From Spartobacteria bacterium (GTDB lineage: Bacteria > Verrucomicrobiota > Verrucomicrobiia > Chthoniobacterales > UBA10450): DNA of 64,000 nt. A program made the position numbers and the translations under genes. The notes beneath the pieces are model-generated. The model was not told where the DNA came from, did no database searches, and worked only from the letters and a program-made list of their open reading frames with translations. This document shows positions 461-59,759 of the stretch, piece after piece; within the stretch, counting starts at the first letter, position 1; each line of letters starts with the position of its first letter. The stretch lies in contig PNAA01000041.1 in assembly GCA_003169975.1 (NCBI GenBank), forward strand, positions 62,657 to 126,656. The letters run 5' to 3'.

Positions 461-461
461 C

Positions 462-14043: not shown

Positions 14044-14139
14044 AGCGGTTCAGTCTCCGTCACCTTGAATCGCATGGGAACCGCCCCCAGCGCGTATCGC
14101 TAAATGGAGGGCGGCCTCGGTCGGGCGGCCGACGACCGC

Positions 14140-14170
14140 GCTAGCTGTGATGTTTCAATAGGTTGTTCAT
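14140..14170. repeat. IS left end: 6-bp target duplication plus left terminal inverted repeat
   Basis: Target copy GCTAGC (14140-14145) is followed by the 25-bp left terminal repeat (14146-14170), starting TGTGATGTTTCAATAGG. It matches the inverse of the right end at 19 of 25 positions. Confidence 0.7.
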
Positions 14171-15184: not shown

Positions 15185-15189
15185 CCTAG
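14235..15189 (+). pseudogene. IS481-family transposase, multiply frameshifted
   Basis: Pieces in order: MNVHHNARLTARGRERIVR (from ATG 14235), then GLSERSVRKGLARFRSEG and LRDRSSRPQ in another frame (helix-turn-helix part), then SRATVSRLLRRHGLARW and LLHFDIKKLGRI in a third frame, then YVHVCIDDASRLAFAQI, ALMSDNGSCY and TNGKAERFIQT, and finally WAYAAIYSHSAHR and YNCHRPHSPL. The DDE catalytic residues (Asp in FDIKK, Asp in MSDNG, Glu in KAERF) are recognisable, but at least four frame changes mean no functional protein. The last frame's stop TAG (15187-15189) lies outside the IS, inside the duplicated CTAG target. Confidence 0.85.
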
Positions 15190-15190
15190 C
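15160..15190. repeat. IS right end: right terminal inverted repeat plus target duplication
   Basis: Right terminal repeat 15160-15184 (ATGAATAACCTCTTGAGCC onward, ending CACA) followed by CCTAGC (15185-15190), the partner of GCTAGC on the left. Confidence 0.7.
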
Positions 15191-15233
15191 GGCGGTCGAC
15201 GGTTTCTGCAACGCCCCCAAGGCGCGTCAAGTC

Positions 15234-22762: not shown

Positions 22763-22767
22763 CGATC

Positions 22768-25202: not shown

Positions 25203-25227
25203 CGAATACTAGCGCAGCCGCGGCAGA

Positions 25228-26091: not shown

Positions 26092-27350
26092 AACGGCGCG
26101 AGCGATTCGGAGCCTGGCGCGGGTTCGGTCGCCATCTGCAGGCAAAGCGGCTCGAGGCGGCGGAGGTACCACTGGAGGGGCCGGTCCAGCTCGCCGTCTT
26201 CGCCCCGCGCCCGGGTAAATTCCGCGAAGGCTTCGTTCCAGCGGCGCTCACGAAAATAAACGATCGCGGTCCAGAAACGATCCCGGCGCGCGATTTCTTC
26301 CGGGGTCGCCTGCTCCGCGAGCGAGAGCAGTTCGTAGACTTCGAGCCGCTCGTGCGACTCGGAGCTGCGCAAAAAATCAATCGGTCGCGCGACGATTTCC
26401 TTGCCAGCCGCGCTGTAGGTCTTGGGTCCAAGCAATATTTGAGAGCCGTAAATCTGGTTCGCGCGCGCCAGCCGGCGAGCGACCTCGAGGGGTTCGCCGG
26501 AAACGACGATCTCACTGCGCGGTGAATCGTCCCGTCTCGTGGCCACGATGACACCGGAGCTGAGGCCGATGCGGAGATCGATCTTGCCTAACGAATCCGG
26601 CCTTGCGGCCGCAGCCGCGCGGAAGCTATCCCGGAAGGCGAGCGCGGCGCGGGCCGCATCGCGCGCATGCTGCTCGCTCGCGTTGGGAAAGCCAAAAAGG
26701 ACGCGTACGCCTTCACCGTCCGCGGCGTGCAGATAACCTCCATCCCGCAGGAAGCGCTCGTTCGCGCAGGCGTTGAAGTCGCGGGTCAACTGCGCGCAGA
26801 CCGCAGCCGGGAGCTCGTCGATCAGCTCGCCTTCATTGGCGATCTCGCAAAAGACAAGGCTCGCTTCGCGCGCCAACGCCTCGCCCAATTCCAGCGCCCC
26901 GTTTTCCGTCAGGCGATCAAGGTTCGCCTGGTGGAGGCGTCCCTCGAAGAGGCGCGTGGTCGCGCTGCGCCGGCGACCGGCATCCGTCGCAGTGAAGCCG
27001 CAGGCGAACGCCGTGGCGAAGCCGGCTGCGAGGATGGCGGGTAGCGGCGGCAAAGAACTTCCCGCGGCTTGCCAAACCCAGGCTGCGACAATCAATTCCA
27101 AGAAAAGCACGGCCAGGAGACCGACGCGACGCCACGTCTGGGTCACCTCCAGCATGGTCCACGCGACGGCGAAGCTGAGCGTGATGACGAAAAGAAAACT
27201 TCCAAAACTGACGGCCTCGTTAGGCGAGAGACCGATGGCTTTGCCAAAAAACGCCGCGGGACGCGCGAGGAGCCCGGTCGTCTGCAGGACGATGGCAACG
27301 GCGGCGGCGGCCGCGCCAATCCACAGTGTGGCGAGGAGCGCGCGCTTCAT
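26088..27350 (-). CDS. Membrane protein with class III nucleotide cyclase homology domain (probably degenerate), 420 aa
   Basis: Four hydrophobic segments within residues 1-125 precede a domain with the layout of class III adenylate/guanylate cyclases: LVFCEIANEGELID, then HAADGEGVRVLFGFP, ARDAARAALAF, LRIGLSSGVIV and a YGSQILLGPKTY ending. In active cyclases the two metal-binding Asp lie in F-x-D-I and G-D-x-V-x-x-x-F-G; here both positions appear to be Glu (CEI and GEG). It may be inactive or regulatory. It overlaps the ClpX-like gene upstream (ATGA) and recR downstream (TTGA). A short helical, TPR-like tail follows the cyclase domain. Confidence 0.75.
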   Translation of the reverse strand: MKRALLATLWIGAAAAAVAIVLQTTGLLARPAAFFGKAIGLSPNEAVSFGSFLFVITLSFAVAWTMLEVTQTWRRVGLLAVLFLELIVAAWVWQAAGSSLPPLPAILAAGFATAFACGFTATDAGRRRSATTRLFEGRLHQANLDRLTENGALELGEALAREASLVFCEIANEGELIDELPAAVCAQLTRDFNACANERFLRDGGYLHAADGEGVRVLFGFPNASEQHARDAARAALAFRDSFRAAAAARPDSLGKIDLRIGLSSGVIVATRRDDSPRSEIVVSGEPLEVARRLARANQIYGSQILLGPKTYSAAGKEIVARPIDFLRSSESHERLEVYELLSLAEQATPEEIARRDRFWTAIVYFRERRWNEAFAEFTRARGEDGELDRPLQWYLRRLEPLCLQMATEPAPGSESLAPF

Positions 27351-28933
27351 TTTGCCGGGCGCTCGCCCGGGCCGTAGGATTGCAGGACCAATTCACTCAA
27401 GAATTTATCCGGAGCCTCGACTGCCGTGGCATCGAGCAGGAACTGGTTTTTACCCGTGTTCTTCTTGATCAAACTGAGGCCGAACTGAAAATCCTTGAAA
27501 AGATGCGCGCAGAGATCGCTCATTTTCATCCGTTCCGCTTCAGCGCGCTCGACCAGCTGGCGCAGCGCGGAGTCGTCAAACTGCAGCTCGACACCGTGCT
27601 CGTTTGAAAAGCGATCGGCAAACGCCCGGGCCTCCTGCATGAGTGCGACTTTTTCGTGCTGTTGACCCTCGGCCATGAGCCGCTCGAGCACGCGCTGTGG
27701 TTCGCGCACCAGTTCTTCGGTCACGCGCAGCTGGCTGAGGCCGGAGCCCGCGAGGTAGTACTTGTAATCGCGGAATAATTTTTCCCAGACGGTGAGCAGG
27801 CCGCGCGCGCCGGTTTTCTCGAGTGCCGCCGCGTTCGCGATGAGGAGCAACGCTTCGTCCTCGAAACTGATCTCGATGCCATAAGCGCGGAACGCGCGCT
27901 CGTACTGCCGCAGAATGCTGCCCTCGGAATACTTCATGATCTTGTAGAGATCATCCGCGGTCAGCTCTTCGCAGACGACTCGGACCGGGAGCCGCCCGAT
28001 GAACTCCGGCTCAAAGCCGTACTCGATGAAATCCTGGGTGCCGACGTGTTTGAAAACGTCGTTGTCCAACACCTTGAGGGGCTCCGATTGAAAACCGATC
28101 TGCCCCTGCGCGAGACGGCGCGCGACCTGGGTCTTGAGACGCTCGAAGGCACCGCTGACGACAAACAGGATATGGCGGGTACTGATCGTTTCGCGCTTGG
28201 CTTTGCCGCGCTTCTGGAATTCGAAGGCGGCCTGGAGCTGTCCCTGGAGATCGTTCGCGCTCCGCAACGGCACCTCGGTTTCCTCCATTAGCTTGAGCAG
28301 CGTCGTCTGCACGCCGCGTCCGCTGACGTCACGGCCCACCATGTTGGTCGCGGAGGCGAGCTTGTCGACTTCGTCGATGTAGATGATGCCGAACTGCGCG
28401 AGCGCGACATCGCCGTCGGCTTTCTGGACCAGTTCCCGAACGAGATCTTCCACATCGCCGCCGACGTAGCCGGTCTCGCTGAACTTGGTCGCGTCGGCCT
28501 TGACGAAGGGCACCTTGATCAGCTCCGCGATATGCTTGATGAGGTAGGTCTTTCCGACGCCGGTCGGGCCGACGAGGATGACGTTCTGTTTCGCGTATTC
28601 GGTTTCCTCGGCGCGGACGGCGTCTTCGCTCTCTAGGTGGCGGAGGTAATTGACGTGGTTGTAATGGTCGCACACGGCGATCGAGAGGACCTTCTTCGCT
28701 TCGTCCTGCTTGATCACGAAACGGTCGAGGTGCGCCTTGATGTCACGCGGCAAAAACTTGAAAACGAACTCCTCACCGCTCGCTTTCGCCGGTTTCTCAT
28801 CGTCGCCGGCTTCCGCTTGTTCGGGCTGGGCAAAGGTCGCGAACGAAACTTTGTCGCCGAAGTTCGATTTCATGAACTCGGAGAGCTTGGCCTGGAGTTC
28901 TTCTGGCGTGGGAAATGGCGGGTTTTGATTCAA
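27347..28933 (-). CDS. ClpX-like AAA+ ATPase without the zinc-binding domain, 528 aa
   Basis: AAA+ core with Walker A GPTGVGKT (about residue 121), pore loop ETGYVGGDVED (about 155), Walker B IIYIDEVDK (about 186), second-region SGRGVQTTLLKLMEETEV, and sensor 2 KTGARGLLTVWE (about 376), all as in ClpX. The IGF tripeptide that docks ClpX onto ClpP is present in QGQIGFQSE. The N-terminal C4 zinc domain of ClpX is absent; instead there is a 60-residue acidic region without cysteines. The C-terminal 140 residues extend beyond ClpX. A ClpP partner with altered adaptor recognition is plausible. Its stop overlaps the cyclase-like gene (ATGA). Confidence 0.88.
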   Translation of the reverse strand: MNQNPPFPTPEELQAKLSEFMKSNFGDKVSFATFAQPEQAEAGDDEKPAKASGEEFVFKFLPRDIKAHLDRFVIKQDEAKKVLSIAVCDHYNHVNYLRHLESEDAVRAEETEYAKQNVILVGPTGVGKTYLIKHIAELIKVPFVKADATKFSETGYVGGDVEDLVRELVQKADGDVALAQFGIIYIDEVDKLASATNMVGRDVSGRGVQTTLLKLMEETEVPLRSANDLQGQLQAAFEFQKRGKAKRETISTRHILFVVSGAFERLKTQVARRLAQGQIGFQSEPLKVLDNDVFKHVGTQDFIEYGFEPEFIGRLPVRVVCEELTADDLYKIMKYSEGSILRQYERAFRAYGIEISFEDEALLLIANAAALEKTGARGLLTVWEKLFRDYKYYLAGSGLSQLRVTEELVREPQRVLERLMAEGQQHEKVALMQEARAFADRFSNEHGVELQFDDSALRQLVERAEAERMKMSDLCAHLFKDFQFGLSLIKKNTGKNQFLLDATAVEAPDKFLSELVLQSYGPGERPAK

Positions 28934-28980
28934 GAGCGAAACTTAACATTGTCGTTTGGTATGTAAAATTTGCTGCGGTG

Positions 28981-29063
28981 GTAGACGCTTCGCTCTGCGA
29001 AGCCCAGGAACCAGCCATTCGCGAGCCGAGTCACCCTCGCGTTTCGCAGAGCGAAACGTCTAC
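28981..29063. repeat. REP-like element, GTAGACG family, copy 2
   Basis: GTAGACGCTTCGCTCTGCGA (from 28981) is matched in inverse by the right end TTTCGCAGAGCGAAACGTCTAC (29042-29063). It lies in the divergent region between the ClpX-like gene and yajC, so promoters must lie around or beyond it. Confidence 0.8.
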
Positions 29064-29187
29064 AGGTCCGGCGTCGGGTCGCGCTTGCGTCCCTTGCATT
29101 TCGAGCGCAACTGTGCTCAGTGGAATGCCGCTCCGGCGGGTTGGCCGCGCCCGAGGCGCATCCGCCGCTGCGCCAACTCATTTGACC

Positions 29188-29511
29188 ATGCTCATCACCC
29201 TTCTCGCTCAGGCCCCGACCGCGACGCCCGCGGCCGCCGGGGCCAATCCGCTCGCGTCCTTCATCCCGATCATTCTGATTTTTATCATTATGTACTTTCT
29301 GCTTTTTCGGCCGCAGATGCGCCGGCAGAAGGAACAACGGAATTTGGTGGCGACGTTGAAAACCGGCGACCGGGTGGTGACCGCTTCGGGCATCCACGGG
29401 ATGATTACGAATGTGAAGGATGCGACCGTGACGGTGAAAGTCGCGGATAATGTCAAGCTCGAGATGGATAAATCCGCGGTCACCAATGTGATCAAAGCGG
29501 TGGAGGGTTAA
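29188..29511 (+). CDS. yajC: Preprotein translocase subunit YajC
   Basis: 107 aa with one membrane helix (FIPIILIFIIMYFLLFRPQ) directly followed by the YajC signature RPQMRRQKEQRNLVATLKTGD, and a small cytoplasmic beta domain (GDRVVTASGIHGMI, VADNVKLEMDKSAV). YajC associates with SecDF and YidC at the Sec translocon. The ATG at 29188 is the first that gives the usual short N-terminus. secDF begins 3 bp after the stop, the standard gene order. Confidence 0.95.
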   Translation: MLITLLAQAPTATPAAAGANPLASFIPIILIFIIMYFLLFRPQMRRQKEQRNLVATLKTGDRVVTASGIHGMITNVKDATVTVKVADNVKLEMDKSAVTNVIKAVEG

Positions 29512-29514
29512 GCG

Positions 29515-31857
29515 ATGACTCCGGCGATTACTTTTTTCATCGGGCTCGTGTTGCTCGTGCTTTTCGGTTGGTATTTCGCAACCGATTTTGGGCCGCGGAA
29601 GCGCCTGCTCGCAACCCTGCTCATGGTGCTGCTGGTCGTCTTCAGCATCATGACCATCTGGCCTCCGAGCCAGAAGGTGCAACTCGGTCTCGATATTCAG
29701 GGCGGCACTTCATTCCTCATCCGCCTGATACAGGGCGATCGGCCGATCACGAAGAACAATCTCGACCAGGCTGTCGAGGTCATCCGCAAGCGCGTCGATT
29801 ACTTCGGCGGCGGAGAGCCAGTGATCAGCCCGGTCGGCACGGATCGAATCCTGGTGCAAATCCCCGGGCTGGATCCGGCCAAGATTATCGAAGCGCGGCA
29901 GCAGCTCTCGCGGGTCGCGAAGCTCGAGTTCCGGCTGGTTTATCCGGATGACGGCGCGCGCTTGCGCGCGATCGATGCCGGCACGGAAGTCATTCCGCCG
30001 GAGTACCGGATTGAAACTTACAAGATGCAGCAGGCCGAAGGCCAGAAGCCGGTCGAGGAGCGCTTGCTGGTCAAGAAAAAGGCAGACCTTGGCGGTGACC
30101 GCGTGACCGAATCCAACGCCTACTACGGGAACGATGGGTGGACCGTGCAGCTGAAGTTCGACAGCGAAGGCGCGAAGAAATTCGGCCAGATCACTGAGGC
30201 GAATGTCGGGCACCGTTTTGCCATTGTGCTCGATGGCGTGATCCAATCGGCGCCGAGTATTCGGACCGCCATCTATGGCGGCGACGCCATCATCACCGGC
30301 CGTTTCGGCGAACAGGAAGCACGCGGCCTCGCCAGCGTGCTCGAGAATCCACTCCAGACGCCGGTCAGCGTGGAGGAAGAGCGAAGCGTCTCGCCGACGC
30401 TCGGGCTCGATTCGATTCGGGCTAGTATTTTTGCCGGTCTCCTCGGCCTCGCGATCACGCTCGTGCTCGTGATGGTTTACTACAAATTCGCCGGCCTGAT
30501 CGCGAATCTCGTTTTGATCGTGAACATCATCCTCCTGATGGGCGCGCTGACGATGTTCAACTTCGTCCTCACCCTCCCCGGCATCGCCGGCATCATCCTG
30601 ACGATCGGCCTCGCGGTCGATGCGAGCGTGCTGATCTACGAGCGATTGCGGGAAGAACTGGCACTCGGCAAATCGCTCAAGATCGCCGTCCAGACGGCTT
30701 ACGAGAAGGCGTTCTCGTCCATTCTCGACGCCAACGTCACGACCCTGATCACGGCCGCGATTCTCTTCTGGAAAGCGAGCGGCCCGATCAAAGGTTTCGC
30801 GATCTCGCTGACGCTGGGCATTCTCGCCTCGCTCTTCACGGCGCTGATCGTCGGCCGGAATCTTTTCAGCTGGTTTGTCGACACCGGAAAAGTGCAGCGC
30901 ATTTCGATGCTCCACCTCATCTCGTCCAAGAATATCAACTTCCTCGGCAAAGGCTTCATCGCCACGATGTGCTCGCTCGCCATGCTGATCGCAGGTGGGA
31001 CCGCCTTCGTCATACGTGGCGATCGCAACTTCGGGGTCGACTTCAGAGGCGGCGACCTGCTCTCGCTGAGCGCAGCGAAAACGGTGCAGGTCGCCCAGAT
31101 TCGCGAGGCGCTGAAACCGATCCACCTCGACAACGAACCGATTCAGCAATCGCTCGAGGGCAACCGGAATTTCATTACGATTCGGAGCCCGATTAATACC
31201 AGCGACCAGGTGAGCAAAGCGATCAAGGAACACATCCCGAACGGGGAATTCAAGGTGGAGCGCGAAGAACGCGTCGGCGCCCTGGTCGGCGGTGAGCTGG
31301 CGAGGAATTCGCTTTGGGCGCTGGGCCTCGGCATTTTCGGGATTCTCATTTACGTCACCTTCCGCTTCGAACTTTCCTTCGCCGTCGGCGCGATCGTCGC
31401 CCTGCTCCACGACGTCCTGATGACGGTTGGAGTCTTTTCGCTCTTGGGCCGGGAGTTGACCCTGACGATGGTCGGCGCCGTCCTCACGATCGCCGGTTAT
31501 TCGATTAACGATACGATCGTCGTTTACGATCGAATTCGCGAAGGCCTGGCCAGTGGGAGGCGCGGGTCGATCGAGCAAATCATGAACGAGAGTATCAACC
31601 AGACGCTTAGTCGCACCATCCTCACCAGTACCGTGACATTGATCCCGATCCTGTGTCTCTTCTTCTTCGGTGGCGCGGTGCTGCGCGACTTTTCGCTCGC
31701 GATCATCATCGGCGTGGTGGTCGGAACCTACTCGTCGATTTTCATCGCTTCGCCGATCGTCCTCTGGTGGACGCGCGCGCGCGGCGTCAGCGCGAGCAGT
31801 TTGCGCCGCGAAGTGACCCAAAAAAGCACGGTCACCAGCCCATCGTCGGCTTCCTAA
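29515..31857 (+). CDS. secDF: Fused protein-export proteins SecD and SecF
   Basis: 780 aa inner-membrane protein combining SecD and SecF in one chain. The SecD half has LGLDIQGGTSFLI, the P1 periplasmic domain (VISPVGTDRILVQIPG, EGAKKFGQIT), and membrane helices with LTIGLAVDASVLIYERLREE. The SecF half starts around residue 470 (FLGKGFIATM) with NFGVDFRGGDLL, GGELARNSLWALGLG and SINDTIVVYDRIREG. The Asp in VDASVLIYERLRE and in NDTIVVYDRIRE are the conserved residues for proton-driven export. It uses the proton motive force to pull secreted proteins through SecYEG. No GCCTAACGA motif occurs in this gene. Confidence 0.97.
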   Translation: MTPAITFFIGLVLLVLFGWYFATDFGPRKRLLATLLMVLLVVFSIMTIWPPSQKVQLGLDIQGGTSFLIRLIQGDRPITKNNLDQAVEVIRKRVDYFGGGEPVISPVGTDRILVQIPGLDPAKIIEARQQLSRVAKLEFRLVYPDDGARLRAIDAGTEVIPPEYRIETYKMQQAEGQKPVEERLLVKKKADLGGDRVTESNAYYGNDGWTVQLKFDSEGAKKFGQITEANVGHRFAIVLDGVIQSAPSIRTAIYGGDAIITGRFGEQEARGLASVLENPLQTPVSVEEERSVSPTLGLDSIRASIFAGLLGLAITLVLVMVYYKFAGLIANLVLIVNIILLMGALTMFNFVLTLPGIAGIILTIGLAVDASVLIYERLREELALGKSLKIAVQTAYEKAFSSILDANVTTLITAAILFWKASGPIKGFAISLTLGILASLFTALIVGRNLFSWFVDTGKVQRISMLHLISSKNINFLGKGFIATMCSLAMLIAGGTAFVIRGDRNFGVDFRGGDLLSLSAAKTVQVAQIREALKPIHLDNEPIQQSLEGNRNFITIRSPINTSDQVSKAIKEHIPNGEFKVEREERVGALVGGELARNSLWALGLGIFGILIYVTFRFELSFAVGAIVALLHDVLMTVGVFSLLGRELTLTMVGAVLTIAGYSINDTIVVYDRIREGLASGRRGSIEQIMNESINQTLSRTILTSTVTLIPILCLFFFGGAVLRDFSLAIIIGVVVGTYSSIFIASPIVLWWTRARGVSASSLRREVTQKSTVTSPSSAS

Positions 31858-31950
31858 ACCCGGAGTTGACGCTGGGGGAACCGGGCCTTAGGATCGCACG
31901 CCAGTCAGCTCGGGCTTTCTAAATTTAACAGGATCAGGAGAAATAATCGC

Positions 31951-32148
31951 ATGCCAGAAGTGATCGTTCGTAAAGGTGAACCGGTGGACCGGGCCTTGAA
32001 ACGGCTCAAGAACAAGCTGGACGCGGAAGGGATTTTGGACGAAGTGCGCCGTCTGCGCGCCTTCGAAACGCCTTCACAAAAGACCCGTCGCAAGGCGAAA
32101 GCCAATGCCAAGCGCGGGCGCGCCAAGTTCCGTTTTAATCCGTCGTAA
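31951..32148 (+). CDS. rpsU: 30S ribosomal protein bS21
   Basis: 65 aa, basic. MPEVIVRKGEPVDRALKRLK and the downstream EVRRLRAFETPSQKTRRK match bS21, which binds the small subunit near the anti-Shine-Dalgarno region. The size is normal. It stands alone after secDF (93 bp gap) with an A/G-rich stretch (AGGAGAAATA) before the ATG serving as ribosome site. It is convergent with the SUMF1-domain gene across a REP-like element. Confidence 0.96.
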   Translation: MPEVIVRKGEPVDRALKRLKNKLDAEGILDEVRRLRAFETPSQKTRRKAKANAKRGRAKFRFNPS

Positions 32149-32169
32149 ACCGTTCGCCGACAGTATTGA

Positions 32170-32315
32170 AGATGCTTCGTTCTGCGAAGCGCGAGGGTAG
32201 CCGTCCAGCTGCTCTCGTTTTTGCCCATCCTGGCAAAGACCTCCCCCCGCAGTCCACGAACATCGGCCGCCGATCAACGGTTTTCCCCGCGTTTCGCACA
32301 GCGAAACGTCTACAG
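32170..32315. repeat. REP-like element, GTAGACG family, copy 3
   Basis: Left end GATGCTTCGTTCTGCGAAGC, right end GTTTCGCACAGCGAAAC followed by GTCTACAG (to 32315). The left end has lost the exact GTAGACG. On the minus strand the right end supplies CTG-TAG, the last codon and stop of the SUMF1-domain gene. Confidence 0.75.
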
Positions 32316-33908
32316 GTCGCACTCGCAGGCAATCCGGAAGCCAAGATCGTTGCACGAGTAATTGGGGACGTTGGCGCCCCGCGTGGTCGCGCGCAGGCTG
32401 TGGAAGCGCGATTTCCAGCTTCCGCCCCGGTAGATCCGCTTCGTGCCCGAGATCGCCCCACGCGGGTTGATCTTCGGCGTTCCGCGATAACTTTCCATGA
32501 AATCGAGGCACCACTCCCAAACGTTTCCGGCCATGTCTTCCATGCCGAAAGGACTCGAACCCAGGGGATAGGCCCCGACCGGCGAGGTCTCGGCGTGGCC
32601 GTCGTCGATCTCGCGATCACTCCAGGCGAAAGTGGTGTTGCGATCGGCGAAATTCGCCAGGTTGCCGCGTCCATCGTGATTGCCCCACGGATACTTGCGA
32701 CCATCCGCCCCGCGAGCCGCATATTCCCATTCGGCTTCGCTCGGCAGCCGGTAGCGCCGGCGTTCCCGGGCACTGAGCCATTGGCAGAATTTAACGGCGT
32801 CGCCGCTGCTCACGTAGACCGCCGGATGGCGCTCGCCCGTGCCGGGCATGCGTTTGCTGGCGTGCTTCGGATCAAACATCTCATACTGCCCGTTGGTGAT
32901 CGGGTGACGGGAAAGGTAATAGCGGGTGAGCGTTACTTGCGTAATTGGCCGCTCGTTAGGCGCAGCATCGACCGTTTCACTGCCCATTTTGAAGACGCCC
33001 GACGGGACAAAGAGCATTTCAGCATCGATGCTGTTGGCGAAACTGGAATATTTGGCCCGCTCCGCCGCCACATCCATGGATGCTCCAACGACCGTTGCGG
33101 ACATAACCGCTGCCGGCGCAGCCGGCGGCAGGGCTATCTCGGGCTTCGGAGCGACGCGCGCGACCGGCTTCGCCGGCGGTAACGCGGCCTGCCCTTCGAT
33201 TTCCTCGAGGTAGCGATCAACCATGTCCTCGGCGTCGCCCGGTTCGATGCCAAGATTTTCCGCCATGTTCACGAAGGCGTCGCGTTGATCGTCTGTCATC
33301 TCATCGGAGCCCAGGCCGCTGAGCCGGAGCATGCGCATGAAATCGTCTTCCGGATTGAGCGCCGGCGGATTGTTCCCTGCGGCCGCTGTTTCCTCCACCG
33401 AGGGCGGGCCGACGCGCGCCCCCCCGCAGGCGAGCAGCTCCGCCTCGATCAACTCCGTCATTCGCTCGTCCGCCAAGCCCTGCTCCCGACCAAACTCCAA
33501 CAGGGTTTGTTCTTCCTGCGGAGTGAGGGTCTTGTCATTAAGGGCAAAAGCCAGATACTTGTTGAATTCGGCGATCGCCTGCTCTTGCGCCTGGGCAGCC
33601 AGTTCATCATCCACCTTTTGCCGGCGCTCGGGGGTGAGCAACTCGACGCGCGCTTCCGTGAGGAAGCGCGACGAGTCTTCGAGCCCGGAGCGCAACAACT
33701 GCGCGAGCGGATTGCTCGGTTGATTCTTAAGCGGCAGCTTCTTTTGCCACCACAGGACCAGATGGCGAAAACGCTCTTCGATCAGCTCGTTGCTCGGATT
33801 GGTGCTCGGATCGAGGCAGAGCCGCTCGTACAAATCCGGCGAATCGTAACGGCTCCAGCCGTCCCACTTCCTCGGATCATCCGGTAAAGGAATCGGGAAG
33901 CTGACCAT
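32310..33908 (-). CDS. SUMF1 (formylglycine-generating-like) domain protein linked to an Hsp70/GrpE pair, 532 aa
   Basis: Residues 1-110 contain DLYERLCLDPSTNPSNELIEE and FRHLVLWWQKKLP, reminiscent of a degenerate J-type or helical co-chaperone domain but without an HPD tripeptide. A proline/alanine-rich linker follows, then a SUMF1 domain from about 290 (MLFVPSGVFKMGS, ITNGQYEMF, RYRLPSEAEWEYAARG, GNVWEWCLD, YRGGSWKSRFHSLRA, NDLGFRIACE). The two catalytic cysteines of true formylglycine-generating enzymes, expected between RGGSW and LGFR, are absent. It is thus a SUMF1-fold binding domain, not a sulfatase activator. It starts 12 bp after the Hsp70-like gene, and its stop comes from a REP-like element. 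Confidence 0.8.
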   Translation of the reverse strand: MVSFPIPLPDDPRKWDGWSRYDSPDLYERLCLDPSTNPSNELIEERFRHLVLWWQKKLPLKNQPSNPLAQLLRSGLEDSSRFLTEARVELLTPERRQKVDDELAAQAQEQAIAEFNKYLAFALNDKTLTPQEEQTLLEFGREQGLADERMTELIEAELLACGGARVGPPSVEETAAAGNNPPALNPEDDFMRMLRLSGLGSDEMTDDQRDAFVNMAENLGIEPGDAEDMVDRYLEEIEGQAALPPAKPVARVAPKPEIALPPAAPAAVMSATVVGASMDVAAERAKYSSFANSIDAEMLFVPSGVFKMGSETVDAAPNERPITQVTLTRYYLSRHPITNGQYEMFDPKHASKRMPGTGERHPAVYVSSGDAVKFCQWLSARERRRYRLPSEAEWEYAARGADGRKYPWGNHDGRGNLANFADRNTTFAWSDREIDDGHAETSPVGAYPLGSSPFGMEDMAGNVWEWCLDFMESYRGTPKINPRGAISGTKRIYRGGSWKSRFHSLRATTRGANVPNYSCNDLGFRIACECDL

Positions 33909-42262: not shown

Positions 42263-42695
42263 CCTCCCCGCCGGCGCACCCGTCGCCGCAGTTGCCGCTG
42301 CGATCTTCCACGATCACTTCCACCCGGATTTCCTGCAGCACGAGCTGGTCGTGGATCGCATTCAGCAGGTCGAGCGCGCGGCCTAACGGCATCTCCGCGC
42401 AGCGCAGCTCGATCCGCGCATTTTTGCCGGCCAGCTCCGGATGCGCCTCCGCCAGCTCGCCATCGAGGAGGAACGAGACGTAGGCGTTGAATTTTTCCTG
42501 GAGCTGAAAAAGCTGCTCGTCGGAGCCGTCCCAAGGGCGCAACTCGAACATCACGAGCAGTACTTCGTCGGTCTTCGCGTCGTGCGCGAAAAAATCGAGC
42601 ACTCCGGTCTGCGCGAGACCGCCAGGTGGAGAGGCGGCCGTGTCGGTCGCAGACCCAGGGGACATCGCAGGCTCCGTCTCAGATTTCTCTCTCAT
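42252..42695 (-). CDS. DUF6572-like small protein
   Basis: Reads QTGVLDFFAHDAKTDEVLL, MFELRPWDGSDEQLFQLQEK, FNAYVSFLLDG, with a late VLQEIRVEVIVED strand. The 'ARPWDGSxExLFxLQEKxNxYxSFxLDG' pattern is what I remember of DUF6572, whose role is unknown. Likely start ATG 42695; ATG 42665 and a longer frame to 42734 are alternatives. The C-terminus GCAGGEGQD includes Gly-Gln-Asp-stop derived from the inverted-repeat arm, the same tail as the MBL protein at 3733. Confidence 0.7.
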   Translation of the reverse strand: MREKSETEPAMSPGSATDTAASPPGGLAQTGVLDFFAHDAKTDEVLLVMFELRPWDGSDEQLFQLQEKFNAYVSFLLDGELAEAHPELAGKNARIELRCAEMPLGRALDLLNAIHDQLVLQEIRVEVIVEDRSGNCGDGCAGGEGQD

Positions 42696-42758
42696 CGGGA
42701 GCGCGACCTTACGGAAAGCTTGGTGCTTTCGCAACGAGCCGCTAGGATAAATTGCGCC

Positions 42759-43622
42759 ATGCGAAAATCACTTCTCGCGCTCGCCGCGCTCGCCATCGTT
42801 AGGGCGCTGCCCGCTTTCGGGCAGTTTGCTCCCGGGTTCGTCACCAACAGCAGCTACTGGAACGACGGCAAAGCCGAGTTCAACATCTACGACGCGCGGA
42901 TCGTCCGCTACGGCCAGCCACGCCAGACCGAGGTGCTCCACATCTTGGTGCGCGAGCCCTTCGACCTGAAGCAAATGGTGAAGCCGGACAACTGGCAGCG
43001 TCCGAACGTGATCCAGGTGCTGAAGATGAACCAGATCCTGCACATCCCGACGGGCATCTACGTTTACCAGCAGATGCATTCCAATTTCTGGCGCGCCGAT
43101 AACGCGCGGTTGGCCAAGTTTTCCCTCACCAGCAACGACAGTTGCGGCAACGCCTACAAGGAAGCGCGGCGCGGCGGCGAGGTATTTGCCTACCAATGGC
43201 ACACCTATTGGGACGGGATGGCCGAGGGCCGGGAAAAGGTGCGGCTCCCGCCTAACGGATTCTTTTACGACGAGCTGCCGCTCCGGGTGCGGACGATCGA
43301 TTTCTCGAAGGGGAGCGGCGACTTCGCGATCCAGCTCGCCCCGACCATCATCAACTCAAAAAAAGACAATCTGGTTTGGAAGCCGGCCAAGGTGCACTTC
43401 GAATCCACCAACCGCGCGATCTACGTGACGGTCGAGCACGCGGTCGGCACCGACCGCTTCATGCTGGGCCGCGAGTTCCCGCATCTGCTGCGCGAGTGGG
43501 CGGCGGCCGATGGCAGCCGCCTGACCTTAAAACGAAGCTTAAAGATCGATTACTGGAACTACCACAACCTCGGCGACCGCAAGCGCGCGCTCCTCAATTC
43601 GCTCCCAGCGCGTCCGGACTAA
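42759..43622 (+). CDS. Exported conserved hypothetical protein, 287 aa
   Basis: The ATG at 42759 begins a signal peptide (KSLLALAALAIVRALPAFGQ). The mature protein is beta-rich: SYWNDGKAEFNIYDARIVRYG, LHILVREPFDLKQMVKPDNW, VYQQMHSNFWRADNARLAKF and an LRVRTIDFSKG-type C-terminal half, with no catalytic motif I can name. Its layout suggests a periplasmic protein of an uncharacterised conserved family. It ends CCG-GAC-TAA-CGA, one base from the common 9-mer. It precedes queF by 63 bp but the link to queuosine is unproven. Confidence 0.8.
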   Translation: MRKSLLALAALAIVRALPAFGQFAPGFVTNSSYWNDGKAEFNIYDARIVRYGQPRQTEVLHILVREPFDLKQMVKPDNWQRPNVIQVLKMNQILHIPTGIYVYQQMHSNFWRADNARLAKFSLTSNDSCGNAYKEARRGGEVFAYQWHTYWDGMAEGREKVRLPPNGFFYDELPLRVRTIDFSKGSGDFAIQLAPTIINSKKDNLVWKPAKVHFESTNRAIYVTVEHAVGTDRFMLGREFPHLLREWAAADGSRLTLKRSLKIDYWNYHNLGDRKRALLNSLPARPD

Positions 43623-43685
43623 CGAAGTGCGAACTGTCTCTCCAACTTCGGATTGAAGCGCGGCTAACGAACAGTAGCTTCCACG

Positions 43686-49007: not shown

Positions 49008-52000
49008 ATGCATCTTCAATCGCTCGAGCTTTTTGGGTTCAAATCCTTTGCCGATAAGACCGTTTTCAATTTTCACGAGGGCGTCACCGCTGTCGTCGGG
49101 CCTAACGGGTGCGGCAAATCGAACGTCCTCGACGCCGTCCGCTGGGTCCTCGGCGAACAATCGGCCAAGGCCTTGCGCGGCGGCGAAATGGCCGACGTGA
49201 TTTTCAATGGCACCGATTCGCGTAAACCGGTCGGTTACGCGGAAGTTTCCCTAACGTTCACCGACTGCGCCACCGAGCTCGGCGTCGATTGGCACGACGT
49301 GCGCGTCACGCGCCGGGTTTATCGCGACGGAATATCGGAATACCTGCTCAACAAAACAGTCTGCCGACTGAAGGATATCCAGAGTCTTTTTGCCGACACC
49401 GGCGTGGGGCGCAGCGCCTACTCGATCATGGAGCAGGGCCGGATCGATCAAATCCTCAGCTCGCGTCCGGAAGATCGGCGCGCGGTGTTTGAAGAAGCCG
49501 CCGGGATCACCAAATACAAAGGGCAAAAGCGTGAGGCGCTGCGCAAGCTCGAGGCGACGGAGGCAAATCTGCTCCGGCTCGGCGACATCATTAAGGAGGT
49601 CAAACGGCAGATCGGTTCGCTCCAACGACAGGCGGGAAAAGCCCGGCGTTACCAGGCGCTGATGGCCGATCTCCAGGTGCTCGATACGCATCATTCCCGC
49701 CGGCAGCTGGATTCGCTCGAGGCCGAACTGGAGCGCTCGCGCGAAGCGACGGGGCGCTTCGAGGAACAGCAACGCACGACCGAGCGCGCGATCGAGGAAC
49801 ACGAAAATGAAGTCGCGGCGCAACGCGGCAAGCTGGAGGAAGTCGATGCGCGGATCAACGAAGCGCGGGCGGCGGTGCAGGGTCTGCAAAACCAGATCGC
49901 GTCGCAGCGCAACCGGATCGACTTCAATCGCGAACGGGCGCAGGAATTGAGCGCGTTGATCGAGCGCTACGAAATCGATGTGCAAACCGCCGAAACCAAG
50001 CGGGCGCAGCAGGAGACGGAAATCCATGACACCGACTTGCTCCTCTCCGAAACCGAACGCCTGCTCGCCGCGAAGCAAACCGAGCTGGAGCAGCTGACCG
50101 AGCGCGCGGCCGAGGTGCGACGGGAAAGAGAAGAACGCGAGCGCGAACTGCAAACTCTCGAGCTGGCGATCTCGAAGGCGGAAAACCGGCTGGCCGATCT
50201 CGAAACGGAAATCTCGGGAACGGTTGCCCGGCAAGCGGCCACCGAGCCGCGTCTCGCGGAGCTGGCGGCATCGTTAGGCGAATTCACCGGCGCGCGCGAT
50301 CTCGTCGCGACGCAACTCGCCGCCACCCGGGCCAGGGCGGATGAGCAACAAGAGGCACTCCAGGATCTGGCGGCGCAAATTCCCGCCGCGGAAGAGGAAC
50401 TCGGCCGGCAGCAACAGCGGCTGGGCGAGGCGGAGGCGGCGCTCACGACGAGCGACCGCGCGCGCGCGGAACGGCAATCGCGTCTCGAGATCCTCCAGCA
50501 GCTCAATGCCGAGGGCGAAGGCCTGACCGAAGGTTCCCAGGCGGTGCTGCGCGGGCTCGACGACCCGGCCCGCATCCTGCCGGCGTTGAGCGGGGCCCTC
50601 GCCTCGCTCATCGAGGTCGAGGAAAAATTCATCCCCGCAGTCGAAGCGGCCCTCGGGCGCAACCTGCACGCCATCGTCCTGCAAAACGGCGCGCTCGCGA
50701 CCGAGATCATCGCCACCGTTACGGCCCGGAATTTCGGGCAAACGGCGCTCATCGCCCCCGAGCTGAGCGTGGGCGCGCCGGCCGCCGCCCGCAAGCTGCC
50801 CCCGGGCGCGCTCGCCTGGGCGACGGAAAAAGTTCACGCTCCGGCCAACCTCGAACCTCTCGTTAGGCACTTGTTAGGCGAAGTCGCGCTCGTGGCCGAT
50901 CTCGAGCAGGCGCAAAAGCTGAAAAAGGAATTCCCGGCCCTCGCCTTCGCCACCCTCGCCGGCGAGCTCGTTTCCGCCAAAGGCGTCATTTTCGGCGGAC
51001 GCGTCGCAGGAGAAAACAGCTCGCTCTTTGCGCGCAAGGCGCAGATCGCCGGCCTCTCCGCGGACCATCGCGCGCTGCTTGACGAACAGCAAAATCTCCG
51101 CGCGCAACACGACGAAATTCAGCGTGAGCTCGACGCCGCGGCCGAGCGCCTGGATGAAATCCGCGAACAGGACCAAGCCGCGCGCGCTGATCATTCCGCA
51201 ACCGCGCTGCAAGTCAGCGCGCTCGAGCGCGAGTGGCACGAAGCCAGCCGCAAAGTGGACGCGCTCGGCTGGGAAAAGACGACGCTCAATCAGCAACTAA
51301 CCAGTGCCAGCGAGCGGGTCGCGCAATTGGAAAGCGAAGCGGCCGGTCAGCGGGAATTCCTCGTGGCAGGACGCGAACGCCAGGTGGCGCTGCAAACCGC
51401 CGCCGAGGCGGCACGGTTGCGCGACGAGCAACTGGTCGAGCAGCTGAGTGAATTGCGGCTCGCGGCCGCAACCGAGCGCCAGCGGCACGAAGGACTGCGC
51501 AGCCAGCGCCAGCCGATGACTGTCCGCCAGACCGAGCTCGCCGAGTTGATCGCGACGCGGCGCGCGGACATCGCAAACTATCAGGCGCGGCGCGAGCAGC
51601 AGAGTACCGAGACCGCCGCCGCCGAGCGTGGAATCGATGAAAACAGCGCGCAACTTTCAGGCGCCGAAGCCGCGGTGGCGGAAATCGCCGAGACGCGCGC
51701 GGCGCGCCTCGCGGAGGTGAATACGCTGGAGACCGATCTGCGGGCGCGCCGGAAAGGGCTCAGCGATCTGCACGACGCGCGCGGCAAGGAAGAGGTCCGC
51801 CAGACGCAGATGCAGCTCAAGGTCGAAAGCATCGCCGAGCACGTCATGCGGCGTTACCAGGTCGACCTGCGCGAGCTTGCGCCCGACAGCTATGCTTTCA
51901 CGAAAACGTTCCGTGCGCAGCTCAAGCAGCGTGGAAAATCCGAACCGGACGACGCGGAAGCCTTTGACGAAGCGCCGCTGCGCGAAATCATCGAGCAGCT

Positions 52001-52721
52001 CACCCGCCAGCTCGACGCGATGGGGCCGGTGAACCTCGATGCGGTGCATGAATACGATGAGCTGGAGGAGCGCCATGTCTTCCTCGAAACGCAAAACAAC
52101 GATCTCACCGCCGCGCGCCGCGAACTGCTCGATGTCATCACGCGCATCAACCAGACGACCGAGAAACTCTTTGCCGAAACTTTCGCCCAGGTGCGAATCA
52201 ACTTCCGCGAAATGTTTGCCGAGCTCTTCGGCGGCGGCCGCGCGGACCTGACGCTGCTCGACGAGAACGACGCGCTCAACTGCGGCATCGACATCATCGC
52301 CAAGCCGCCGGGCAAACAATTGCAAAGCGTCTCGCTCCTCTCTGGCGGCGAGCGCACCATGACCGCGGTCGCGCTCCTCTTCGCCATCTATATGGTACGT
52401 CCGTGTCCCTTCTGCATCCTCGACGAAATGGATGCGCCGCTCGATGAGTCGAACATCAATCGCTTCATCCGCGTGCTCGAGCGGTTCGTCACCCAAAGCC
52501 AGTTCATCATCATCACCCACAACAAGCGTACGATCGCGAAGGCCGACATTCTTTACGGCGTGACGATGGAAGAACGCGGGATCAGCAAACTGGTGGGCAT
52601 GCGGCTGACGGAGGAAAAATCGGAGGGAGAAACGCGGCCCGCTCGCGCCGAGGCGCCCACCGAGCAGCGGGCCCTCGAACTCGACGACGCGCCGCCGGAG
52701 AACGTCGCGCTCACTCGTTAG
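49008..52721 (+). CDS. smc: Chromosome segregation ATPase SMC, 1,237 aa
   Basis: Full-length SMC: N-terminal Walker A VVGPNGCGKSNVLDAVRWVL, the Q-loop region SYSIMEQGRIDQIL, two long coiled coils, a hinge around residues 515-680 (GLDDPARILPALSGALASLI, ARNFGQTALIAPEL), and the C-terminal signature LLSGGERTMTAVALL plus Walker B CILDEMDAPLDE. It condenses and segregates DNA with ScpA and ScpB, which are not in this window. Start ATG 49008. It contains two exact 9-mer copies (50271, 50860), and its stop TAG is in a third (52715). The Walker A codons for GPNG also give a near-match CCTAACGG. Confidence 0.97.
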   Translation: MHLQSLELFGFKSFADKTVFNFHEGVTAVVGPNGCGKSNVLDAVRWVLGEQSAKALRGGEMADVIFNGTDSRKPVGYAEVSLTFTDCATELGVDWHDVRVTRRVYRDGISEYLLNKTVCRLKDIQSLFADTGVGRSAYSIMEQGRIDQILSSRPEDRRAVFEEAAGITKYKGQKREALRKLEATEANLLRLGDIIKEVKRQIGSLQRQAGKARRYQALMADLQVLDTHHSRRQLDSLEAELERSREATGRFEEQQRTTERAIEEHENEVAAQRGKLEEVDARINEARAAVQGLQNQIASQRNRIDFNRERAQELSALIERYEIDVQTAETKRAQQETEIHDTDLLLSETERLLAAKQTELEQLTERAAEVRREREERERELQTLELAISKAENRLADLETEISGTVARQAATEPRLAELAASLGEFTGARDLVATQLAATRARADEQQEALQDLAAQIPAAEEELGRQQQRLGEAEAALTTSDRARAERQSRLEILQQLNAEGEGLTEGSQAVLRGLDDPARILPALSGALASLIEVEEKFIPAVEAALGRNLHAIVLQNGALATEIIATVTARNFGQTALIAPELSVGAPAAARKLPPGALAWATEKVHAPANLEPLVRHLLGEVALVADLEQAQKLKKEFPALAFATLAGELVSAKGVIFGGRVAGENSSLFARKAQIAGLSADHRALLDEQQNLRAQHDEIQRELDAAAERLDEIREQDQAARADHSATALQVSALEREWHEASRKVDALGWEKTTLNQQLTSASERVAQLESEAAGQREFLVAGRERQVALQTAAEAARLRDEQLVEQLSELRLAAATERQRHEGLRSQRQPMTVRQTELAELIATRRADIANYQARREQQSTETAAAERGIDENSAQLSGAEAAVAEIAETRAARLAEVNTLETDLRARRKGLSDLHDARGKEEVRQTQMQLKVESIAEHVMRRYQVDLRELAPDSYAFTKTFRAQLKQRGKSEPDDAEAFDEAPLREIIEQLTRQLDAMGPVNLDAVHEYDELEERHVFLETQNNDLTAARRELLDVITRINQTTEKLFAETFAQVRINFREMFAELFGGGRADLTLLDENDALNCGIDIIAKPPGKQLQSVSLLSGGERTMTAVALLFAIYMVRPCPFCILDEMDAPLDESNINRFIRVLERFVTQSQFIIITHNKRTIAKADILYGVTMEERGISKLVGMRLTEEKSEGETRPARAEAPTEQRALELDDAPPENVALTR

Positions 52722-52819
52722 GCGAAATTTGCGTCTCGTCCGGCAGGACCGGCTTTTTCCAGACGGTGGCGCAAATAGAGGTTCGACGGTATGATCTGGC
52801 CCTCGTTAGGCCAGCATCC

Positions 52820-53959
52820 ATGAAGAAACTTTTTCTCTTTCCGCCCCTCCTCCTGCTGGGGTTCGTTCCCGGGACGCAGGCCTATGGTCCGGACGGTCAC
52901 AAGATCATCGGCGCGATTGCCGACCAGAAACTGGCCAACACGCCGACCGGCGCGCGGGTTTCCCAACTCCTCGACGGCTACACCCTGGAAGAAGCGGCGC
53001 TCATGGCGGACACGATCAAGCAATGGGACAAGCCGGGGATTGATGATCCCAAGGTGCAAAGATACTTTTCCTCGCATCCGAAAATCGCGGAGCAGTTGCG
53101 CGCCTTCTGGCAAGCGAACCCGCCCAGGAGCGACGAAAAGTCGGCGGTCCCCTCGCATCACTGGTTTCACTACACCGACGTGCCACTGGTCGATGACGAA
53201 AAATATGCCGATGGAAAAACAGGCCGCGGCCAGTGGGACATCGTTCACATGATGCGCTATTGCATCGAAGTCCTGCAGGGAAAAAAGCCGGAGGAAAACG
53301 CGCGCAAAATCACAAAACCGATCGCGCTCATTCTGCTCGCCCATTTCGTCGGCGACATCCATCAGCCGCTGCACGTCGGCGCGCAGTATTTCGATGCGAA
53401 GGGGAATCCGGCGAACCCCGACCGGGTGAGCGGGATTTTCCCCGACGAGGGCGGCAATTCGCTCCAGCTCAAACTCGCCAACGCCGCGCCCCGGAAACGG
53501 GATCTGAAGTTCCACGGTTATTGGGACGCGGACGCGGTTCTGGCCAATCTCCCGCAGTTTCCTGACACCATGCCGAAAGAAGAGCGGCAGATGAAAATGG
53601 ACGCGGCTGAAAAGGCCCTAACGACTGATCTGGCAAAAGAGGAGCCGAAAAACTGGCAGCTGCCGCCGAGTGTGCCGGTGGCTGATTATCCGGAGGCGTG
53701 GGCGAATGAAATCCTGCCGCTGGCCCGCGAGGCGCATGCCCGGCTGCACTACCGAGACGTGAAGCCGACACTGGACCAGGAAAAAATGGTCGCAGCCGGC
53801 GAGATCGTGGAGCAGCCGGGCCCAGGCACGATTCCCTACCGCAAATGGTCAGCCGGCGTCGTGCGGGAAGAGTTGCACAAGGCCGGCTGGCGCCTCGCCG
53901 ATTTGCTGCAGCGCGCGCTTGACCCCGGGTCACCGACCCCGGCGAAAGCGGCGCCCTAA
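52820..53959 (+). CDS. Secreted S1/P1-family nuclease, 379 aa
   Basis: A signal peptide (KKLFLFPPLLLLGFVPGTQA) is followed by YGPDGHKIIGAIAD. The family normally has Trp at the mature N-terminus, where the amino group and carbonyl bind zinc; here it is Tyr. Other zinc ligands appear present: HHWFHYTDVPL, and HFVGDIHQPLHVG with the His-Asp-His set. Expected activity is 3'-nucleotidase and single-strand nuclease at the periplasm or outside. Start ATG 52820, nine bases after a TCGTTAGGC motif. Its stop TAA and the stop of the convergent protease gene share one CCTAACGA. Confidence 0.9.
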   Translation: MKKLFLFPPLLLLGFVPGTQAYGPDGHKIIGAIADQKLANTPTGARVSQLLDGYTLEEAALMADTIKQWDKPGIDDPKVQRYFSSHPKIAEQLRAFWQANPPRSDEKSAVPSHHWFHYTDVPLVDDEKYADGKTGRGQWDIVHMMRYCIEVLQGKKPEENARKITKPIALILLAHFVGDIHQPLHVGAQYFDAKGNPANPDRVSGIFPDEGGNSLQLKLANAAPRKRDLKFHGYWDADAVLANLPQFPDTMPKEERQMKMDAAEKALTTDLAKEEPKNWQLPPSVPVADYPEAWANEILPLAREAHARLHYRDVKPTLDQEKMVAAGEIVEQPGPGTIPYRKWSAGVVREELHKAGWRLADLLQRALDPGSPTPAKAAP

Positions 53960-55275
53960 CGACCAGCCGAAAGCGTCGTTCCCGCGTCGCCCGTCGGCAG
54001 ATTTGCCGCCTTCCAATCCATCGCCATCCGGATCCGGGCGCGCCCACTCGGGTGATCGAAGAAGATGAATTCCTCGACCGGACCCGGATCGAGCTTGCGA
54101 TAAGAACCCAGCTTCAACGCCACCATGGCGAAACCATCTGCCTCACGCGCGGTGTTGATTCCGAATGCGTCGGCCTCGCGCTCGGTCACTCGCACCGCCG
54201 TGTTGGCGAGCGGAGTGATGAGAAAAAAGAAGGTCGAGAAAATCAAGACGAGGAGCGGGAAGCCCGCCGGATCCGCGATGTCGCGCACTCCCCAGCGCCC
54301 GCCCCACCGCCGCACCGCCCGCTCGAAAACCGCACGCGAAACGGCGAAACCGCCAAAGATAAAAAGACCAAAATAGAGGATGAGCTTGAACGAGTGATTG
54401 AGCACGTAATGGCCCATCTCGTGAGCCATCACGGCGCGGATCTCCGGCAGCGTGCATTGTTTGAGCAGGTTGTCGTTCAGCGAAATGCGCGCGGTCCCGA
54501 AGAGTCCGGAGACATTCGCACTCACGCGATTGCTCTGGCGTGACGCATCGACCTCGAACACCTGCTGCACCGGGATTTCGTTGGCACTCGCCATCGCCAG
54601 GATCGGCTGGCTGATTTTGGAATCGGCGATGGGTTTGTAGGTATTAAACAGCGGGGCGATGAAAACCGGCGCGATCAGCATGGCAATGGCGAGGAAAAGC
54701 ACTCCCGCTCCCGTGCCCCAGAGCCACCACGTCCGCCGGGCGTGCCGGAGAACGGCGTAGAGGACGAGCAACGCGATCGTGGTCGCAATCATCGCGATCG
54801 CCAGACCGATGAGCTGTTCCCGAAACCAGGGCCCGAAGGTTTGCGTCGCCAGTTCGTAAGCGTGTTCCCGGAAATAGTCGGAGTAAACGCCTAACGGAAA
54901 GGAGAAAACGAAAACGAGCAGGACGTAGGGAACGGCATAAAGCGCGACCTGGAGCGACTGGAAGCGGGTGGTACGCTCGGCGAAAGCCCGCAGGCGAGCG
55001 GAAAGACCACTGCTTAGAAGGAAAACGGAGATCGCCGCTCCGAGCAGGAAATTCCAGAGGATCAGCCAGTAGCCTCCCTCGAAATAGGCATCCGACCGGG
55101 CTCGTTTTTCGGCCGGGACGGTGGCCAGCCAGGCGCGGGTGGCCGCGGCCGGATCGAGCTGTTTCCGCTTTTCCGGGGCAGTCGTTAGGGAAATGGAGGT
55201 AGGTTGCGCGACAGCGACCAGCGGGTTTGCGATCAGGCAACAGGCGGTAAGCAACAAGACGACGACGATTTTCAT
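53956..55275 (-). CDS. M48 (Ste24-like) membrane metalloprotease, 439 aa
   Basis: A signal-like N-terminus and about seven membrane segments surround the zinc motif MAHEMGHYVLNH (HExxH) and the third ligand in EREADAFG, as in CAAX prenyl protease 1/Ste24. The N-terminal M48_N-type region SFPLGVYSDYFREHAYE is clear. Bacterial relatives carry out membrane or envelope protein quality control, because there is no prenylation. Start ATG 55275. The gene converges on the S1/P1 nuclease with a 4-bp overlap. Internal copies of the 8-mer include 55182. Confidence 0.92.
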   Translation of the reverse strand: MKIVVVLLLTACCLIANPLVAVAQPTSISLTTAPEKRKQLDPAAATRAWLATVPAEKRARSDAYFEGGYWLILWNFLLGAAISVFLLSSGLSARLRAFAERTTRFQSLQVALYAVPYVLLVFVFSFPLGVYSDYFREHAYELATQTFGPWFREQLIGLAIAMIATTIALLVLYAVLRHARRTWWLWGTGAGVLFLAIAMLIAPVFIAPLFNTYKPIADSKISQPILAMASANEIPVQQVFEVDASRQSNRVSANVSGLFGTARISLNDNLLKQCTLPEIRAVMAHEMGHYVLNHSFKLILYFGLFIFGGFAVSRAVFERAVRRWGGRWGVRDIADPAGFPLLVLIFSTFFFLITPLANTAVRVTEREADAFGINTAREADGFAMVALKLGSYRKLDPGPVEEFIFFDHPSGRARIRMAMDWKAANLPTGDAGTTLSAGR

Positions 55276-58868: not shown

Positions 58869-58880
58869 CAGCTTGGCAGC

Positions 58881-59591
58881 CTAACGATGAACGCCCCTAC
58901 CCGCCAGGGGCGGCGCCGGAAAGATCGCGCGCACTGGTTGCGGAGGGTGAAATTTTTCCCGCAGCTCCCGGGTGAAAACCTGCTCTGCTTCCGCGGGCAG
59001 CGCAGCCGATTTCTCGCGGGCCAGTTGGGGCAGAAGAGCGAGCTCGGTCTGGATGTCGTCCGGCAAGATCCGATTCCAGAACCCGTTCTCGAGAGCGAGG
59101 ACCTCGACCTGCTGCTGCTCGACGGAGAGGATCTGGGCATGGGGCAGTTCGATCAAGATTTCGTCAGGGCGGAGGTTGACGCTAAAATTTTTTCTCAAAT
59201 CGAATCCTGCTTTGACCACGAACGTGCCGTGCAGCTTGATCCGCTTGGTGCTGCCGGCCCACGAATGTAACATTTCGTGCTCAACTTCCACCCGGCGGGC
59301 GAGGACCGAGAGTTCGGCGACCGTGGTCGTCTGCTCGAGGTAGACGCGATTGTTCACCGTCACGCGTGGTTGCAGGTGCGCGAGCGTGACGAAGGTGTCA
59401 CGCGCGTCGCGCCCGAGGCGCTCAAGCTCGGCCACGCTCTGACCGACCACGCGTCCAGGCCATCTCTGCACCCTGGAGAAGACCAAGGCGGCGAGCAGCG
59501 CGAGGATGAAAACGATGACGACGGCGGCGACGGGGCACCCCAGCCGCCGCGGTGACTTTTCGGCCGCGGGGCGGTTCGTTTGTAACTCCAT
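58881..59591 (-). CDS. DUF4230-like membrane-anchored protein, 236 aa
   Basis: ATG 59591 (MELQTNRPAAEKSP), one membrane helix (AAVVIVFILALLAALVFSRV) and an extracytoplasmic region with ELSVLARRVEVEH, KLHGTFVVKAGFDL, ILIELPHAQILSVE and an acidic helical tail. The 'W/LxGTxxVKAGFDLRK' strand is what I associate with DUF4230, whose role is unknown. Its stop TAG belongs to GCCTAACGA at 58879, read on the minus strand as CGT-TAG. The 168 bp to the divergent transglutaminase gene contain no feature I can call. Confidence 0.72.
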   Translation of the reverse strand: MELQTNRPAAEKSPRRLGCPVAAVVIVFILALLAALVFSRVQRWPGRVVGQSVAELERLGRDARDTFVTLAHLQPRVTVNNRVYLEQTTTVAELSVLARRVEVEHEMLHSWAGSTKRIKLHGTFVVKAGFDLRKNFSVNLRPDEILIELPHAQILSVEQQQVEVLALENGFWNRILPDDIQTELALLPQLAREKSAALPAEAEQVFTRELREKFHPPQPVRAIFPAPPLAGRGVHR

Positions 59592-59759
59592 CAGCCCAAA
59601 AAAGTACCGCCCCCCACGCCCGAAGGACATGAAGGGCGGCTGTTCCCCCCAGAACAATCTTTCAAATCTGAATCGGAGATACCCGACCTAACTCCGGCTT
59701 GCAAGAAAAATTTTCGCCCCCGGGTGGGAAAAAGTTCCAGCCTGTCCTAATCTTGCTCC

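Follow-up and report, generated by a model that had tools for sequence, protein, structure and literature searches.

At one point in a 64,000-nucleotide stretch of the draft genome of a Spartobacteria bacterium, referred to here as the window, two genes that face each other end in the same short word, which raises the question of whether this word is kept as a two-way stop or whether the shared stop has some other origin. The word, CCTAACGA, supplies the TAA (53957-53959) of an S1/P1 nuclease gene and, on the opposite strand, the TAG (53958-53956) of a peptidase M48 gene, giving the two genes a convergent overlap of 4 bp, CTAA, at 53956-53959. A preliminary description had pointed out this double stop, and both it and the letters reported for 53950-53966 were confirmed. 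The features of the locus are:

52820-53959, plus strand: S1/P1 nuclease gene (Pfam, 1.4e-29), ending in a TAA within the word
53955-53962, plus strand: word CCTAACGA, TAA for the plus-strand gene and TAG for the minus-strand gene
53956-55275, minus strand: peptidase M48 gene (Pfam, 1.2e-24), ending in a TAG within the word

The nuclease open reading frame could start at a GTG at 52766 instead of at 52820. The two-way stop of these genes is real but incidental, and the real object of interest is not the shared stop but the word behind it: the shared stop is probably a by-product of a genome-wide word, in its extended form GCCTAACGA with CCTAACGA as its core, that appears to behave like a DNA uptake sequence.

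Other genes in the window end in the same way, as the preliminary description had listed for a GTPase, a receiver-MBL, the smc and a DUF4230-like gene; these word stops are real, with the positions 22757, 25197 and 58879 given there being one base low. Its statement that an exported gene at 43622 ends in a near-match was borne out, ACTAACGA holding the TAA of that gene. The features are:

22758-22765, plus strand: word, gives the TAA of the Ras-like GTPase gene at 22262-22762
25198-25205, plus strand: word, gives the TAA of the receiver/MBL-fold gene at 23880-25202
43618-43625, plus strand: near-match ACTAACGA, holds the TAA (43620-43622) of the gene at 42441-43622
49008-52721, plus strand: smc gene (Pfam), its stop within a minus-strand word
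52715-52722, minus strand: word, gives the TAG of smc
58880-58887, plus strand: word, gives the TAG of the minus-strand DUF4230-like gene at 58881-59630

The gene at 42441-43622 had no Pfam match, and Rfam gave no match in the window. Six gene stops in the window come from five of its 55 words.

These 55 copies compare with 0.76 expected, and the window's own genome (G000; 4.47 Mb, a draft) holds 2498 copies of the word, 1278 forward and 1220 reverse, versus 165 for a control with the letters of the word reversed; over-representation of the word is about 45- to 70-fold. The consensus is sharp: a first sample of G000 contained 490 exact copies (10.5 expected) and 494 with one mismatch (412 expected), the latter only about 82 above background, so that exact copies outnumber above-background near-matches. 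The base G precedes the word in 44 of the 55 window copies. Word density along the window was uneven, with 17 copies in 1-9734 and none in 9735-15527 or 27225-32952, possibly as a result of gene constraint or of acquired DNA.

The high number of near-exact copies would suit a tiny mobile or replicating insert landing at gene ends, and the preliminary description had likewise spoken of gene ends as places where the word can insert. We regard an insert as having next to no chance of being correct, since nine of ten word sites in smc, the one gene compared, aligned without gaps in all 198 comparisons with word-poor relatives, indicating that words arise by substitution; the tenth site lies in an indel region, with gaps in 22 of 22 comparisons. 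Flanking sequence in the window copies, which also argues against an insert, shows little conservation beyond the one preceding base. Once present, the words are retained in place, aligned word sites being identical at 15 of 18 positions in G003, 14 of 18 in G005 and 9 of 14 in G002, where the background identity is 11-12% for all 8-mers and 13-21% for CTAA/TTAG 8-mers; in the more distant L002, none of four word sites was identical.

The range of the word is limited to a single family of Chthoniobacterales. Copies numbered 1795-5493 in all five genomes of the window's genus, word-rich genomes also turned up singly in two further genera (G005 and G014; counts of 2672 and 2254), and copies numbered 97-771 in 30 other genomes of the same family and 3-86 in 21 genomes from other families of the order, while among 387 genomes of the phylum the extended word GCCTAACGA exceeded 133 copies only in family members. 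The highest counts outside the family, 59-133 copies of GCCTAACGA, were seen in G239, G242 and G251 (family f18, genus g64) and in G428 (f15, g84).

Stop codons were counted with gene calls from our own hexamer model, in which starts are imprecise and stops mechanical, in samples of G000 (906,963 bp, 20%), G003 (same genus; 310,497 bp) and G014 (same family; 794,614 bp), these being three of the 37 family genomes, with G001, G002, G004 and the rest left aside. Against uniform placement in allowed positions, the comparison that the preliminary description had proposed, overlap with stops was 44- to 82-fold above random in all three samples: 52 of 527 words acted as a stop in G000 where 0.64 was expected (82-fold), 36 of 416 in G003 (0.51 expected, 71-fold), and 35 of 618 in G014 (0.79 expected, 44-fold). 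With only genes of at least 150 aa considered, 42, 26 and 27 stop words remained and the excess persisted at 42- to 85-fold. Genes ending in the word made up 54 of 775 (7.0%), 37 of 270 (13.7%) and 38 of 709 (5.4%) in the G000, G003 and G014 samples, respectively. The absence of words from stop frames inside genes (0/414, 0/284 and 0/545) follows from the way genes were called and was set aside as evidence.

An excess of this size favors the reading that selection maintains the word at gene ends for two-way termination of translation, which would guard convergent genes from read-through. We consider such selection very improbable. The uniform-placement null is misleading by itself, as the word already contains TAA/TAG, which accounts for much of the excess, and it was replaced by comparisons conditioned on the triplet and on the flanks. 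The triplet-conditioned test was run on G003 and on 826,963 bp of G000, the first sample from that genome. The share of TAA triplets lying in words was higher at stops than in noncoding DNA, as selection for stops would have it, in both G000 (29/194 versus 59/1644, p = 4e-9) and G003 (23/105 versus 97/973, p = 8e-4), and the corresponding figures for TAG were 16/210 versus 59/1397 (p = 0.035) and 14/83 versus 97/794 (p = 0.23), giving odds ratios in G000 and G003 of 4.7 and 2.5 for TAA and 1.9 and 1.5 for TAG. TAA/TAG triplets in tolerated frames within genes reached similar or higher word fractions, for example 97/786 and 123/589. Conditioned on both flanks and triplet, with small counts and scatter, the ratios of observed to expected were 23.2 and 11.0 (G000) and 24.3 and 35.1 (G003) at stops, and 19.2 and 13.1 (G000) and 49.5 and 17.5 (G003) in noncoding DNA, revealing no consistent stop-specific excess over noncoding triplets in these two genomes. 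The excess on which a useful two-way stop would depend thus shrinks with the triplet taken into account and loses consistency with the flanks, although there may be a small preference for the word at TAA stops.

The geometry of the word also speaks against a selected two-way stop. On each strand it halts a single frame, most copies are located within genes or between them, and words serving as the stop of two genes were just 2 of 52 stop words in G000, 1 of 36 in G003 and 3 of 35 in G014. Convergent gene overlaps of 4 bp that share CTAA, TTAA or CTAG are a known class, to which 53956-53959 belongs, differing in that its shared CTAA sits in a repeated word. Such 4-bp overlaps occurred in 5 of 113, 1 of 41 and 15 of 114 convergent pairs in the G000, G003 and G014 samples, and a CTAA shared within the repeated word was found in six words across all three samples together.

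Orthologous gene ends indicate that at several of these places the word is retained while its role as a stop varies. In G000 and all four same-genus relatives (G001-G004) the word terminates the M48 gene, and it likewise terminates smc in G000 and every one of the four relatives whose smc end could be read (G001, G002, G003 and G005; the smc end of G004 lies off its contig), a constancy that would favor selection for the stop; neither gene ends in the word in the more distant G014. The nuclease, by contrast, ends outside the word in four of four relatives, in TGA, TAG, TAA and TGA, which counts against the word being kept for its stops; the gene was not found in the fetched stretch of G004. 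Also against selection for the stop, four of five relatives (genera g1 and g2) have retained the word at the end of the DUF4230-like gene but terminate that gene 3-4 bp ahead of it. The word stop of the GTPase gene was kept in one of two orthologues and that of the receiver-MBL gene in neither of two, three receiver-MBL matches (identity about 45%) and the one in G014 not being counted, as paralogues or too distant. Because the word is retained in relatives regardless of whether it acts as a stop, the two-way sharing appears incidental.

A second, unrelated word also bears on gene ends. In the G014 sample, AAGATCGACA followed by A or T was found 1238 times in 794,614 bp, versus 4.4 expected, and the form AGATCGACA has 4941 copies in the G014 genome versus 89 in G000, and 249-1672 copies in 15 genomes of genera g5, g6, g9, g12, g13 and g14. 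From its letters, AGATCGACA is free of stops in every frame, and still it is concentrated in the 40 bp after G014 stop codons, with 93, 53, 65 and 30 copies in the first four 10-bp bins versus about 9; 46 TAA and 8 TAG stops in G014 share letters with it. This accumulation of a stop-free word suggests that gene ends favor such words, stop or no stop, and is a further argument against selection for termination. The first word peaks there as well, with 53 copies in G000 in the bin (25 bp) that covers the stop versus about 12 in other bins, and 54, 24 and 14 copies per bin in G003. The earlier suggestion of gene ends as sites without cost thus holds in so far as the word is tolerated there, while the notion of insertion does not.

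Within intergenic gaps of up to 300 bp, the word was densest between convergent genes and sparsest between divergent ones, with 9 copies in 6843 bp of convergent, 22 in 30,538 bp of tandem and 2 in 10,085 bp of divergent gaps in G000, and 17 in 2760 bp, 31 in 11,035 bp and 9 in 3802 bp, respectively, in G003. The high density in short convergent gaps is what would recommend the word as a component of gene-end transcription terminators, which seems quite improbable given that most copies are inside genes. Terminator hairpins formed by inverted word pairs were considered and rejected, as G000, G003 and G014 showed no excess of close inverted pairs. Close inverted pairs of some copies have been reported for known uptake words, including those of the Neisseriaceae, and the lack of an excess here is therefore also a point against the uptake reading.

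Strand polarity bears on another alternative, in which the word would serve chromosome organization, repair or recombination as a binding site resembling Chi, KOPS or a nucleoid-protein site, and would have nothing to do with uptake. Chi, KOPS and HIP1 are short words repeated genome-wide; the word described here differs in having no strand polarity in G000 and in being non-palindromic. By stretch, mostly of 20 kb in this draft genome, polarity, which for Chi and KOPS takes the form of an orientation bias along the replichore, was absent from G000 (chi-square p = 0.956; 214 switches among 443 neighbors), absent for the word in G014 (p = 0.291) as for the second word there (p = 0.697), and marginal in G003 (p = 0.036). 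An apparent restriction to plus-strand copies on contig C5, among the matches listed, was judged an artefact of listing forward matches first; C5 stretches form part of the polarity-free G000 sample. A binding site would account for a word that is dense, genome-wide and conserved in place, and the competing uptake role is itself putative. We nevertheless think a binding site unlikely, as the near-exact consensus and the finding that sister clades have different, unrelated words, with one genome carrying the two together, better fit uptake dialects.

The arrangement of those clades was seen in a tree of smc (31 rows), in which genera g1 and g2 form the clade of the first word and the second word occurs across the sister group, apart from g4 and g8, which lack it; G014 has both words. 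The tree leaves out G002, G009, G021, G024, G031, G032, G035 and G036, whose copies were partial or not fetched, and G037 and G038 are its long-branch outgroups. Elsewhere in the family the first word persists at 31-175 copies per Mb, while two outgroups have 3 and 11, a difference suggesting that the first word is older than the second.

The word seems to work like an uptake sequence and is a candidate for one. Cells with competence pili would preferentially take up and recombine DNA bearing the word, which would accumulate wherever the harm it does is small. In Neisseria such a word has a specific receptor, ComP. As it contains CTAA/TTAG, the word can lie within genes in four of the six frame-orientations only, the remaining two forcing it to be a stop. 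A gene frame running into a word would end at that word, a pre-existing TAA or TAG would need fewer changes to become a word, and two convergent frames meeting at one word would share its stop, with no function as a stop codon being necessary. In the excerpted text of the sources cited here, the spread of known uptake words is thought to come from uptake bias and recombination, limited by harm to genes (PMC7811141), and the words are said to originate by point mutation (PMC1626085); the same logic would also explain the pattern in these genomes. ComEC was found in 53 of 58 genomes, DprA in six of six and the PilT family in seven of seven, and for abundant bacteria of soil, an excerpt of PMC7305173 reports a link between recombination and ComEC loci. 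Word-poor families and relatives also carry competence genes, however, so that these genes do not discriminate, which weighs against the uptake reading.

The word has likenesses to two described systems. According to the portion of PMC3630211 consulted, the DUS of the Neisseriaceae is a short word present in thousands of copies in coding and intergenic DNA, with lineage-specific dialects, and in most of these the placement of the word is restricted by a stop codon, UGA, that appears in one frame. These traits have their counterpart here, and the differences are another word, the coexistence of an unrelated second word within the family, the lack of an inverted-pair excess, the phylum Verrucomicrobiota, and an uptake role that is putative. 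The USS of the Pasteurellaceae, as portrayed in parts of PMC1626085 and PMC7811141, has in common with the present word a strong consensus with few near-matches, an origin by point mutation, occurrence on both strands and subclade-specific types. It differs, beyond the word itself and the putative status of uptake here, in its noncoding preference: Haemophilus and Neisseria words favor noncoding DNA (PMC1626085, excerpt), and in G000 the noncoding word density per placement is below the coding density, a further point against the uptake reading.

In an excerpt of a review, sequence-tagged uptake is described for two families of bacteria, the Pasteurellaceae and Neisseriaceae (PMC5031613). We lean towards the broader view that a family of Chthoniobacterales, uncultured soil Verrucomicrobiota, evolved self-specific uptake apart from these two, using two unrelated words, GCCTAACGA and AAGATCGACA, that G014, with thousands of copies of each word, may record a switch of specificity, and that gene ends across these genomes, including the shared stop, were rewritten by this drive. 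If true, this would be a third case of sequence-tagged uptake, in another phylum, implying that the trait evolved more often; recombination in these uncultured bacteria would be chiefly among kin, and a family with two words would open the evolution of specificity to study. The finding would also show how such a drive reshapes stop codons, with 5.4-13.7% of sampled genes ending in the word. Open-access literature searched for the word and its reverse complement held no relevant report among the matches listed, as judged by title and the start of the abstract, which is not proof of novelty.

Further short words were encountered along the way. The G014 sample contains 173 copies of CCTAACAA beside its 618 of CCTAACGA, and the former is a possible dialect variant of the word. 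On L027, a contig of a Chthoniobacter flavus MAG, GGGCTGGA occurs 22 times in 15.5 kb (1.15 expected), perhaps reflecting a repeat-rich gene. In 71 kb of three related contigs (L002, L003 and L057), AGGGACCT was found in 14 copies, versus 0.57 expected.
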